A stretch of DNA of 35,577 nt from a virus: positions 1 through 35,577 of IMG/VR virus record IMGVR_UViG_3300034106_002642; one strand, written 5' to 3'. The position numbers were made by a program, and so were the translations under genes. The notes beneath the pieces were generated by a model. That model was not told the DNA's origin. It made no database searches and saw nothing but the letters and a program-made list of their open reading frames with translations. Below are positions 7,440-16,739 of this stretch, piece after piece. The stretch's first letter is position 1; the number at the start of each line of letters is the position of its first letter.

Positions 7440-7645
7440 ACTGTTTCATACTCCAATCGACTAACACGGTAAGTTTGTAACTTAAACCAAGCATTACACC
7501 TGTGCCCACCACAATTTATCCATTTACGACTCGTGATAACTAAACTAACACAAAAACAGCTAGGGCAACGATAATAGCTAATTGGTGCTATCGTCGTCGG
7601 TAAGGTACTTTTGGATAAACTCTTCCTTGGATAACGGCTTGGCAC
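7397..7645 (-). CDS. Small zinc-ribbon protein overlapping the TerS end
   Basis: I choose GTG at 7643-7645 because a strong Shine-Dalgarno (GGAGGTAAGGAG on the minus strand) lies 8 bases upstream, inside terS. This gives an 82-aa protein with CPSCFC near residue 27 and CGGHRC near 44, a Com/Ogr-like four-cysteine pattern. It overlaps terS by 68 bases in another frame. The pair of zinc-ribbon genes in a row is unusual. Function unknown; nucleic-acid binding is plausible. A later non-ATG start just before the zinc motif cannot be excluded. Confidence 0.6.
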   Translation of the reverse strand: MPSRYPRKSLSKSTLPTTIAPISYYRCPSCFCVSLVITSRKWINCGGHRCNAWFKLQTYRVSRLEYETVWALSTVLKNQMNK

Positions 7646-8057
7646 TGACAACGCTCCTTACCTCCCCGCTAATCTCAATCTGATGCTGCTCACTCCAACC
7701 TAGCTTAGTCTTTAACAGATGAAGCAAAATTGGCGTATTGCCATTCATAGCCTCAGATATAGCTACAGCAGCTAAACCTTTTTGCATCTCAGCTTGACCC
7801 TCTAAAAACTCTTCTAGGTAATACTTCTCTAAGATGTAAACACTAACCCTAGCAGTTAACGCTGTAGAACTCTTAGACAAGCCATGCCTAGCTAAATCCC
7901 GTATTTGTAACCCTAACTGCTCATCTTTCTGATGATCCCTAGTCTGAGGTACTACCCTAAGCACAGGAGGCTCCACCTCAATCGCTATTTTAGACTCCGA
8001 TATTTTAGCCAAGTCTTGAATAACTTCGACCTGTTTTAAATCGCTTTCATCTTCCAT
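7578..8057 (-). CDS. terS: Terminase small subunit (TerS)
   Basis: A 159-aa protein two small genes upstream of TerL. The middle (about residues 45-125) has the TerS-like run of helices: LGLQIRDLARHGLSKSSTALTAR (helix-turn-helix), YYLEEFLEGQAEMQKGLAAVA, then NGNTPILLHLLKTKLGWSEQHQ, the usual TerS ending before the oligomer/TerL-binding tail. It would recognise the packaging site and recruit TerL. It is the first gene of the late operon, with a 220-base leader upstream. Confidence 0.75.
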   Translation of the reverse strand: MEDESDLKQVEVIQDLAKISESKIAIEVEPPVLRVVPQTRDHQKDEQLGLQIRDLARHGLSKSSTALTARVSVYILEKYYLEEFLEGQAEMQKGLAAVAISEAMNGNTPILLHLLKTKLGWSEQHQIEISGEVRSVVSAKPLSKEEFIQKYLTDDDSTN

Positions 8058-9709: not shown

Positions 9710-9718
9710 CCCTCTACA

Positions 9719-9795
9719 AGCCCCTAGGTTGCATTATCCTTCGTAGCCTAGGGGTAACCCTACCCCGCAGCATTATCTTTCAACCTTGGGGCTGC
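9719..9795. terminator. Tandem hairpins with a shared loop between convergent genes
   Basis: Two adjacent inverted-repeat elements carry nearly the same central sequence, GCATTATCCTTC (9731-9742) and GCATTATCTTTC (9770-9781). The first has perfect 8-bp arms, CCCCTAGG (9721-9728) and CCTAGGGG (9747-9754); the second has CCCC/GGGG or GCAGC/GCTGC arms. They sit between the ends of 9497-9709 (+) and 9813-10439 (-). A bidirectional terminator is the simplest reading, but the lack of U-tracts and the conserved loops leave room for a protein-binding RNA element. Confidence 0.45.
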
Positions 9796-9812
9796 TAGGC
9801 CGTTTAGCGGGC

Positions 9813-10439
9813 TTACTCAGGTATATCGTCATGGCTCCAACGCCTTTCTTGGTATATTGATTTGTTTTTCCGCAAAATTGTTCGAGTCTCAGCATCCCAT
9901 TTTTCCCAATGGGTACCCTTATCCTCCCAACCCTCAGACTCCGCTCTCAGTTGCGCTAATCGTGCTTCATGCTTTTCTTCATCTTCTTTTTTCATAGCAT
10001 CCTCATCTTGAACAGCATTTAAATTTACATGATCACTTAGTAATTCATTCTTAGTAATATCTTTATTAGTAATCTCTTTATTAGTAGTGAGTACGTCGTA
10101 CCCCCTCATCTGAGTATTTCTTACCCCCTCAGGGGGTATATTATGCCCCCTCTGGGAGTATTTCGTACCCCCTTTGCTGGTAAGTGAAATAACCCTTTTT
10201 CGACCATTATGTGAAACGGTCAAATAACCTGCATCGGCTAGTTTCTTGATTAGGTTTTGAATAGTCTTTTCAGAAAATCCGGTTTCTTCTGAAATATGTT
10301 TTCGTGACGCAAAACAAGGGAGATTCTTTGCTTCCCATTCTGCAACGTAAGCAAGAAGGATGGCTTCGTATGGGCCTAGTGTTCTTACTAAATGCTTCTT
10401 TGTGTTGAAAAAAGAGGTTTCTTGAGGTATTTTAGCCAT
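9813..10439 (-). CDS. Replication initiator-like protein, lambda O-type architecture
   Basis: A 208-aa protein. Residues about 20-90 form a winged helix-turn-helix (HTH_36-like): LGPYEAILLAYVAEWE, then SRKHISEETGFSEKTIQNLIKKLADAGYLTVSHNGR. A low-complexity linker (about 85-135) follows, then an acidic/basic helical stretch and a Trp-rich C-terminus (GWEDKGTHWEKWDAETR). The linker DNA contains iterons and AT-rich repeats, as in the lambda O gene. It is the only minus-strand gene in the early region, with its own upstream region. I infer that it binds the iterons in its own gene and recruits host replication proteins, as no phage helicase or polymerase is visible. A purely regulatory DNA-binding role is the alternative. 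Confidence 0.65.
   Translation of the reverse strand: MAKIPQETSFFNTKKHLVRTLGPYEAILLAYVAEWEAKNLPCFASRKHISEETGFSEKTIQNLIKKLADAGYLTVSHNGRKRVISLTSKGGTKYSQRGHNIPPEGVRNTQMRGYDVLTTNKEITNKDITKNELLSDHVNLNAVQDEDAMKKEDEEKHEARLAQLRAESEGWEDKGTHWEKWDAETRTILRKNKSIYQERRWSHDDIPE
10037..10087. repeat. Four AT-rich TTAGTAA repeats, candidate DNA-unwinding element
   Basis: TTAGTAA occurs at 10037, 10051 and 10066 and TTAGTAG at 10081, with 14, 15 and 15-base spacing, in an AT-rich block next to the iterons. On the minus strand they encode the TNKEITNKDITK part of the initiator. Position and composition match the AT-rich 13-mer-type unwinding elements of iteron origins. Confidence 0.6.
10098..10186. repeat. Four 22-bp palindromic iterons, candidate replication origin
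   Basis: Four tandem units start at 10098, 10121, 10143 and 10165 (spacing 23, 22, 22). Each has a RTACCCCCT-like left arm and units A and C share GAGTATTTC on the right. Unit B contains the perfect palindrome TACCCCCTCAGGGGGTA. The 22-base period is not a multiple of three, so the repetition is not explained by protein repeats and must be kept for a DNA-level function. With the adjacent AT-rich repeats inside an initiator-like gene, this is most likely the phage origin. Confidence 0.68.
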
Positions 10440-10452
10440 AGTATTTCCATTT

Positions 10453-10492
10453 AAAACGCCCTATTACTTTGACCGGTATGGGGCGTTTTTTT
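10453..10492 (+). terminator. Intrinsic terminator-like hairpin
   Basis: AAAACGCCC (10453-10461) pairs with GGGCGTTTT (10481-10489), followed by a T-run to 10492; the loop is 19 bases. On the plus strand it could stop transcripts coming from the first early operon before the next promoter. On the minus strand the same fold lies in the leader of the initiator gene and might attenuate it. Confidence 0.5.
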
Positions 10493-10526
10493 ATTGTTTC
10501 AGCCAGTTATAGCTTTCTGGCAAAAT

Positions 10527-10608
10527 TCCCTCAAGAAATTTTTATAATATCCGAAACTAATGCTGTACACAGCACATCGTATTGTGTAGGATTGATGCTG
10601 TAAACAGT
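10527..10608 (+). promoter_or_regulatory. Second early promoter region with two CTGTANACAG operators
   Basis: GCTGTACACAGC (10562-10573) and CTGTAAACAG (10598-10607) lie 35 bases apart, just before the RBS AAGGAG (10615-10620). A TATAAT (10543-10548) precedes the first. The segment CCCTCAAGAAATTTTTATAA ... ATCCGAAACTAA resembles that before the 8.70-kb operators. One or both operators would overlap the transcription start, so binding should repress. Confidence 0.6.
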
Positions 10609-10624
10609 GCTTATAAGGAGCGTT

Positions 10625-13357: not shown

Positions 13358-13666
13358 GTGGCAACAAGGATTGGAGCATTCAAGGCACACACATCACAAT
13401 TAGTGGTTTGGCAACAGCCCGAACGTATCACTTTTACGTTTCAAAAAAGCTATAAAGACAAAAGATCCGGGCAATATAAAGCTACTCAAACCATTTTCCC
13501 AGATGAGCTAGAAGCAATAGGACAGATGTTTTTGCGAGCCGCTGCTTGGGCAAGGCAGCATGATTGCGGTCCAACACTACCAAAAGGCGTTGTACAAATA
13601 GACGATGTTTTAACAACAGTGACTAAACAAATAAAGGACCGATATGAAACCAGTCAAAACGTATAA
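13358..13666 (+). CDS. Paralogue A of a tandem ssDNA-binding-like pair (102 aa)
   Basis: It starts at GTG 13358 with AGGAGG 9 bases upstream. The core ITFTFQKSYKDKRSGQYKATQ then DELEAIGQMFLRAAAWA aligns with the next gene's TYQISKRYKDKNTEEWKDSK and DLEKLVVLLQEAI. This beta-sheet-then-helix layout, with a YKDK hairpin, resembles small PC4/PUR-alpha-like single-strand binding folds found in mobile elements. This copy lacks the acidic DDIPF tail. Near Bet, a role in handling single strands is plausible but unproven. Confidence 0.65.
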   Translation: MATRIGAFKAHTSQLVVWQQPERITFTFQKSYKDKRSGQYKATQTIFPDELEAIGQMFLRAAAWARQHDCGPTLPKGVVQIDDVLTTVTKQIKDRYETSQNV

Positions 13667-13955
13667 AGATGGCGGAGTACAGATAACAATGTGGCCTGCT
13701 AACAACGGAGGTTATACTTATCAAATTAGCAAGCGCTACAAAGACAAAAATACAGAAGAATGGAAAGATTCGAAATATCTTTATAAGTCTGATTTAGAAA
13801 AGCTTGTGGTATTGTTGCAAGAAGCAATTAACAGTGAATCAGAGCGAGTAAATTACAACGCTGAACGTGTCACTAGTGGTCAACCTGCTACTACACCGCC
13901 AGCAAAATTTAAGTACGAATTAGCAGATGCAGACGTTGATGATATACCGTTTTAA
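13644..13955 (+). CDS. Paralogue B with SSB-like acidic tail DDIPF (103 aa)
   Basis: A 103-aa protein related to the preceding gene and overlapping it by 23 bases. The N-terminal two thirds carry GGVQITMWPANNGGYTYQIS, RYKDKNTEEWKDSKYLY and a helix. A Ser/Thr/Pro linker leads to ADADVDDIPF at the very C-terminus. Bacterial SSB proteins end in DDDIPF, which docks recombination and replication proteins, so this is probably a functional SSB analogue on an unrelated or divergent fold. No OB-fold signature is evident. Confidence 0.65.
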   Translation: MKPVKTYKDGGVQITMWPANNGGYTYQISKRYKDKNTEEWKDSKYLYKSDLEKLVVLLQEAINSESERVNYNAERVTSGQPATTPPAKFKYELADADVDDIPF

Positions 13956-16181: not shown

Positions 16182-16739
16182 GTGAAAAACACCCTGGTCG
16201 GCGAACTACCTCGGCACCTCTATTGTTACGTTGACAGCAGATATACACACCAAGAGCCTACAGGCTTCATTCCTGCGGTTTGGTTTGGGCTAGTTTCCTA
16301 CCCCGGAAGAATGTGGGGATGTACAGTCATGCTAGAGTCAGGCGCAATATACCGAAACTTACCAGCGCATAGCTTGGCATTTGATGATGCACCGCAAACA
16401 CCCTGGGAACCAGAAGAAGCTCAGACGTGGGATTGTTACGGCGAAGATTTTACCTGCTTAGAATATCGCTACTTAGCAGGGTTAGAATGTAAGGTTCAAA
16501 CACAGCTTAGACCAGGACAGCACGAAGGGCAGTATCTGTTTACCGCAGCGCCCGTCGGTGATGGATTTTCTGCTGCTCCTGAACAGGCAAAGGAGTTCTG
16601 CTTTATCCAGCTATACAATGGCAGACTGACTATCCAGCCAACTAACCTTGTCGTATTTAAAGAGAAAAGTTTTACAAATCATGAGCTGCAATTTCCAACA
16701 GGTCTTAAACGACAAACAGACATCTTTACCGTTGAGTAA
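16182..16739 (+). CDS. Conserved phage protein of unknown function (185 aa)
   Basis: Starts at GTG 16182 with AAGGAGGA about 4 bases upstream. The sequence has FIPAVWFGLVSYPGRMWGCT, VMLESGAIYRNLPAHSLAF, WDCYGEDF, YLAGLECK and a C-terminal NGRLTIQPTN segment, beta-rich and aromatic. I recall this composition as a phage-restricted family without known activity. A 12-codon frame (ATG 16148) ends across this start codon and might be a leader peptide. Soluble, no signal peptide or membrane segment. Confidence 0.65.
   Translation: MKNTLVGELPRHLYCYVDSRYTHQEPTGFIPAVWFGLVSYPGRMWGCTVMLESGAIYRNLPAHSLAFDDAPQTPWEPEEAQTWDCYGEDFTCLEYRYLAGLECKVQTQLRPGQHEGQYLFTAAPVGDGFSAAPEQAKEFCFIQLYNGRLTIQPTNLVVFKEKSFTNHELQFPTGLKRQTDIFTVE

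Follow-up and report, generated by a model that had tools for sequence, protein, structure and literature searches.

The window analysed here, 35,577 bases long, is the whole of IMG/VR virus record IMGVR_UViG_3300034106_002642. On its minus strand, positions 9813–10439, it carried a monocistronic gene for a 208-aa protein (P0001), recognised as a predicted initiator by its translation, profile matches and predicted structure. The protein was laid out as an N-terminal winged helix (residues ~15–90), a disordered linker (~92–149) and a C-terminal part (~150–208). An HTH_36 domain (PF13730) was found at residues 21–73 (33.5 bits, E 3.6e-8), above the curated cut-off of 25. The best PHROG matches were the replication-initiation families 270, 678, 391 and 428, with E-values of 3e-12 to 9e-10 for 270, 678 and 391 (2.7e-12 for PHROG 270). 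The predicted model was of low confidence (pLDDT 56) and comprised a winged helix at residues ~15–86, disorder at 92–149 and some C-terminal helices. A fold search with this low-confidence model (pLDDT 56) returned generic winged helices only, and a sequence search of the PDB found no initiator.

The neighbours of the initiator gene were kept among its relatives: on one side lies a divergent operon that includes RecT and a transglycosylase-like protein, on the other are a regulator and the terminase. An inverted repeat at 9714–9798 (18-nt arms, 83% complementary, 49 nt apart) lay where the initiator gene and the small plus-strand genes converge, and is possibly a bidirectional terminator. Two neighbouring look-alike small proteins without a family match were encoded at 13358–13955; the last residues of the second, DDIPF, resemble the acidic tip at the C-terminus of single-stranded-DNA-binding proteins. 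The protein encoded at 16182–16739 matched PHROG 3704 (labelled ferredoxin, auxiliary metabolic gene; E 6e-22). GC skew along the window followed the gene strand and was of no help in locating an origin.

Within the linker-coding part of the initiator gene, four repeat copies were found at 10089–10182, spaced 23, 22 and 22 bp apart (22/22/23 bp when read along the coding, minus strand). Across relatives, the unit was a 19-bp hyphenated dyad of ~19 bits, GGGGGTA-N5-TACYCNN on the coding strand, in which all units of the matrix shared the five G of the left arm and a C at two positions of the right arm. A motif scan placed the iterons on the minus strand at 10154–10172 (iteron 1, GGGGGTACGAAATACTCCC, 28.2 bits), 10132–10150 (iteron 2, GGGGGCATAATATACCCCC, 23.2 bits), 10110–10128 (iteron 3, GGGGGTAAGAAATACTCAG, 26.6 bits) and 10087–10105 (iteron 4, GGGGGTACGACGTACTCAC, 27.7 bits). 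The initial annotation had described four palindromic units, one of them perfect. The four copies were recovered, but the perfect palindrome read from the sequence, TACCCCCTCAGGGGGTA at 10122–10138 (plus strand), is not a single unit, as it joins two neighbours, iteron 2 by its right arm and iteron 3 by its left. The placement of all repeats within the linker region of a winged-helix gene agreed with the predicted disorder of the residues that they encode (92–149, pLDDT below 50). Several iterons about two helical turns apart are thus present within the initiator gene, as in a lambda-type in-gene origin.

These repeats could be read as reflecting repetition at the protein level, in a linker of low complexity, and as having no function as DNA, since the linker is predicted to be disordered and its AT-rich part encodes an in-frame five-residue repeat (ITNKE/ITNKD). 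The iteron spacing of 22–23 bp is at odds with this, and the GGGGGTA core was translated in all three frames (KGGT, QRGH, PEGV and MRGY). Under synonymous recoding, the observed 66-nt lag score was reached in 0/5000 trials and the 44-nt score, a lag that is not a multiple of three, in 1/5000; under codon permutation, 0/300 reached the observed repeat score. Because the repeats exceeded these codon-aware nulls, protein repetition is excluded as their source. The permutation test was also applied to 22 other genes of the window and gave no comparable repeat (the gene at 7578–8057 was marginal at 24/44), and the iteron block was the sole tandem repeat in the window with a period other than a multiple of three at the cut-off used. 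GGGGGTA-N5-TAC with at most one mismatch was seen 8 times against 1.09 expected, and 6 of the 8 occurrences lay inside the iteron block. With the near-total synonymous identity and the extra inverted iteron of two relatives described below, we give a purely protein-level origin of the repeats hardly any credence. The earlier statement that the unit length is not a multiple of three held for the iterons, but failed for the adjoining AT-rich units, which recur every 15 bp and are mostly in-frame.

These AT-rich units form a tract at 10023–10086, a candidate DNA unwinding element by its nearest-neighbour energy and AT content (82% AT over 10037–10086). Four TTAGTAA repeats had been reported; three were exact (10037–10043, 10051–10057 and 10066–10072), and the fourth, at 10081–10087, reads TTAGTAG. 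Their period was 15 bp with one gap of 14, mostly in-frame and encoding ITNKE/ITNKD, so that only comparative and stability evidence counts for this tract. Ranked by nearest-neighbour energy over the entire window, the minima of stability for lengths of 40, 60 and 100 bp started at 10047, 10023 and 9987, respectively. The 40-bp and 60-bp minima lay inside the AT tract, 3.8 and 4.0 s.d. from the window mean, and the 100-bp minimum overlapped it. The AT tract was again the least stable 60 bp in each of the five related loci that were tested. By this measure, an AT-rich element suited to unwinding adjoins the iterons, as expected of an in-gene origin.

Eleven viral loci were found with related proteins, ranging from identical to 54% identical, while a profile search yielded no relatives in bacterial genomes and no additional viral loci. 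The iterons were kept in every relative fetched; relatives with the protein but lacking the repeats, which the initial annotation had named as a refutation, were sought and none was found. Three of the loci (L009, L011 and L012) shared ~60% amino-acid identity with the window in the N-domain, where 24/51, 19/52 and 22/50 synonymous codons matched, respectively (37–47%). Over the iterons the corresponding matches were 19/20, 20/20 and 17/18, and over the AT tract 12/12, 13/13 and 12/12; for both together, 29–33 of 30–33 synonymous codons agreed (94–100%). Third bases invariant in four lineages numbered 36/43 in the origin versus 16/88 before it (Fisher p 4e-13, a nominal value, given that the sites are linked and that recombination may make the region more uniform). 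The conservation beyond codon constraints that the initial annotation had proposed as a check was therefore found, and exactly over the iterons and the AT tract. Such a pattern points to selection on the origin DNA that is independent of the protein, although recent recombination in this stretch could account for part of the identity between relatives, given the sharp divergence of the window and L008 that sets in at iteron 4.

That divergence was common to L006, L007 and L008, whose N-domains were nearly the same as that of the window up to iteron 4. In these loci, the initiator ended after an AT tract of other sequence, and the C-terminal part was located on a separate downstream ORF, whereas it was fused to the initiator in the window and in L009. 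The corresponding region of the window is 9813–9960 on the minus strand (tblastn, 54% identity over residues 161–208, with the separate ORF of L007/L008 as homologue). The split was seen in L006 (4777–5121) and in L007/L008 3' of a 154-aa initiator ORF, with the C-terminal part as a separate 122-aa ORF; the ORF with the N-domain and origin ended in EEDDFCPFD in L006 and in DEDDFCPFD in L007/L008. A fifth, inverted iteron, GGGGGTATTTCGTACTCAG, was present beyond the AT tract of L007/L008 (L016 4633–4651 and L017 6407–6425) in another reading frame, and L006 had the same sequence. Between the window and L008, the stop of near-identity at iteron 4 means that the DNA-binding domain and the iterons were kept together, and that the AT tract and the C-terminal part were exchanged. 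The L008 version of the C-terminal part matched no known helicase-interacting domain or significant family, and its separate ORF had no relatives outside its own group. Initiator C-termini of differing length (window, L006–L009 and L011) ended in an acidic D/E-x-P motif, with the variants DDIPE, DNVPE, SDLPE, DELPD and DDFCPFD.

Upstream, a candidate initiator promoter, TTGAGG-17-TATAAC, was read by eye and from the upstream alignment at 10496–10535 (minus strand). Its TATAA was aligned in all relatives except L011, but we regard it as weak, since a consensus scan did not return it. Antisense to the initiator and directly 5' of its start codon, an intrinsic-terminator-like hairpin with a T tail was found at 10453–10497 on the plus strand (inverted repeat I7). 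Its folding z was -2.9 in the window and -3.5 to -4.4 in relatives; in every relative the antisense strand folded more strongly than the sense strand, and in L009, L011 and L012 the position was kept with a changed stem sequence. A strict terminator scan did not return this hairpin, and Rfam gave nothing above threshold near the origin. Directed at the hairpin from within the first codons of the initiator was a promoter-like TTGAAA-17-TATTTT (10405–10433, plus strand), one of 3 such sites found versus ~2.5 expected by chance in the region scanned; third bases of codons 10–13, which overlap the TTGAAA, were invariant in four lineages. The convergent pO promoter of lambda, close to the beginning of O, produces the short oop RNA and has an effect on replication (PMC3985674), and a ~58-nt oop-like antisense RNA may possibly be made at 10405–10497. 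Two operator-like palindromes, TGCTGTACACAGCA and GCTGTAAACAGT, were located at 10560–10615, in the gap that separates the initiator from the divergent operon, with similar sites upstream in L008, L009 and L012.

In structure comparison, the winged-helix fold resembled MarR/ArsR regulators, and GGGGGTA dyads resemble operator half-sites, so the protein might regulate its own gene through the repeats, the AT tract being incidental. We consider this improbable: the dyads lie ~270 bp inside the gene, away from its promoter, the upstream palindromes differ from them, and the best PHROG profiles are those of replication initiation. An operator function would also leave unexplained the low stability of the AT tract, in the window and five relatives, and the synonymous invariance. 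Structure matches further included the centromere-binding proteins AspA, pNOB8 and TubR, which would suit a partition centromere of a plasmid-like prophage, with a TubR/AspA-like winged helix bound to iterons. For this we see barely any likelihood, given that the profile matches are initiators, that a centromere does not need an AT tract, and that a search for ParA-type ATPases in the window and in six related records, some of them fragments, gave no match. Both the repressor and the partition reading were rejected on this evidence.

Taken together, the repeats, the selection on DNA, the stability of the AT tract and the initiation profiles support the original proposal that the gene encodes an initiator with an embedded origin, and a theta-type phage origin within its own initiator gene, with the mechanism outlined here, is very likely. 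Binding, melting, helicase recruitment and the direction of replication are what we infer from the sequence. The N-terminal winged helix would bind each 19-bp dyad, probably as a dimer. Since the period of 22–23 bp is close to two helical turns, the four dyads should lie on one face of the DNA, where they would give rise to a nucleoprotein complex able to strain and then melt the adjoining 80%-AT tract. The C-terminal part may then bring in the host helicase and replisome, directly or via a host factor. DnaB, DnaC/IstB and family-A polymerase had no matches in the window or the six related records (some fragments), and the phage therefore probably relies on the replication proteins of its host. 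Tyrosine integrase had no match in these records either. A more far-reaching and rather doubtful idea is that of a minimal 'solo' origin module, in which a 208-aa protein and its own origin would work without a phage loader, with an exchangeable C-terminal helicase recruiter and perhaps output control by the antisense RNA. The analysis places the origin of an uncultivated phage group known only from metagenomes from sequence alone, and the codon-aware repeat null, the freeze at synonymous sites and the rank of the least stable segment are usable on any HTH_36-type initiator in viral metagenomes.

An O dimer binds each iteron in lambda; O contacts DNA through its N-terminal region and P through its C-terminal region, and the AT region becomes destabilised (PMC6022878, PMC7466680). 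Both the lambda O gene and the window gene carry four hyphenated-dyad iterons and then an AT-rich tract between the regions for DNA binding and the C-terminus (PMC6022878), so the lambda-like order on the coding strand (winged-helix domain, four iterons, AT tract, C-terminal part) was borne out. As a positive control, lambda O gave 1/300 in the same permutation test, and the window repeats scored higher. Iteron spacing is 20–24 bp in the lambda ori by record annotation and 22–23 bp in the window, but the iteron sequences differ (GGGGGTA-N5-TACYC in the window, about TCCCTCAAAACGAGGGA in lambda), as do the lengths of the initiators (208 and 299 aa) and their families, lambda O belonging to Phage_rep_O (PF04492, E 5.7e-36) and the window protein to HTH_36. 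Phage_rep_O was absent among the 25 matches listed for the window protein, and hhalign of the window profile (A1), a shallow alignment, against lambda O was negative. PHROG 678 was matched by both proteins at overlapping positions, so distant kinship is conceivable. The label 'lambda O style' given by the initial annotation thus fits the way of working but not homology, and we file the protein as a predicted HTH_36-type initiator with a lambda-type in-gene origin, apart from the homologues of lambda O. Lambda also has P, whereas no P/DnaC-like gene was found for the window with its monocistronic initiator gene. The absence of a DnaC/IstB or DnaB match suggests that the locus is not an O/P-type module with an adjoining helicase-loader gene, though a diverged P-like loader is possible.

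Similar arrangements were found in other phages. Searched for in bacterial genomes, the motif pair GAGGGGGTA-N-GAGGGGGTA was uninformative, matching mostly simple tandem repeats. In viral contigs it matched the winged-helix initiator-like genes L049, L055, L076, L079 and L071/L081, in which a common GGGGGTA core is only suggestive, as they were selected by motif. The initiators of Skulduggery, GJ44, LspM-01 and HU1 were recovered by protein similarity and not by motif, with L076 as bait; since L076 was itself found by motif, this choice is not wholly independent. In the permutation test, Skulduggery, GJ44 and LspM-01 gave 0/300 and HU1 3/300, while the homologous initiators of phiSa2wa, SpT252 and SE-1 had no significant repeats, which means either that not every initiator gene of this type has iterons inside it or that those of these three are more degenerate. 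A GGGGGTA or GAGGGTA core occurred in iterons of the differing winged-helix initiators L049, L055, L076, L071/L081, LspM-01 (L223) and BK5-T (L219), several of them found by motif. Like the window, Pseudomonas phage Skulduggery, Oceanospirillum phage GJ44 and Lysinibacillus phage LspM-01 have winged-helix initiators with linker iterons of 21–23 bp. Those of LspM-01 share the GGGGGTA core, but the iterons of the three phages otherwise differ from those of the window, and their initiator is followed by a DnaC-like, AAA ATPase or DnaA-annotated gene, which the window lacks. Lactococcus phage BK5-T (P335-type) likewise encodes an HTH_36 and PHROG 270 initiator with an annotated in-gene repeat_region, which the ungapped permutation test missed, and then an AT tract. 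It differs from the window in repeat unit, spacing, host and neighbouring genes, and no similarity was seen between the C-terminal halves. In SPP1, oriL lies within gene 38, with direct repeats and an AT-rich unwinding element in the gene of the origin-binding protein (PMC6316719); unlike the window, SPP1 also has oriR as a second origin and encodes a helicase loader, gp39, and a DnaB-type helicase, gp40, of its own. The arrangement is already known from other phages, and the window adds another case.
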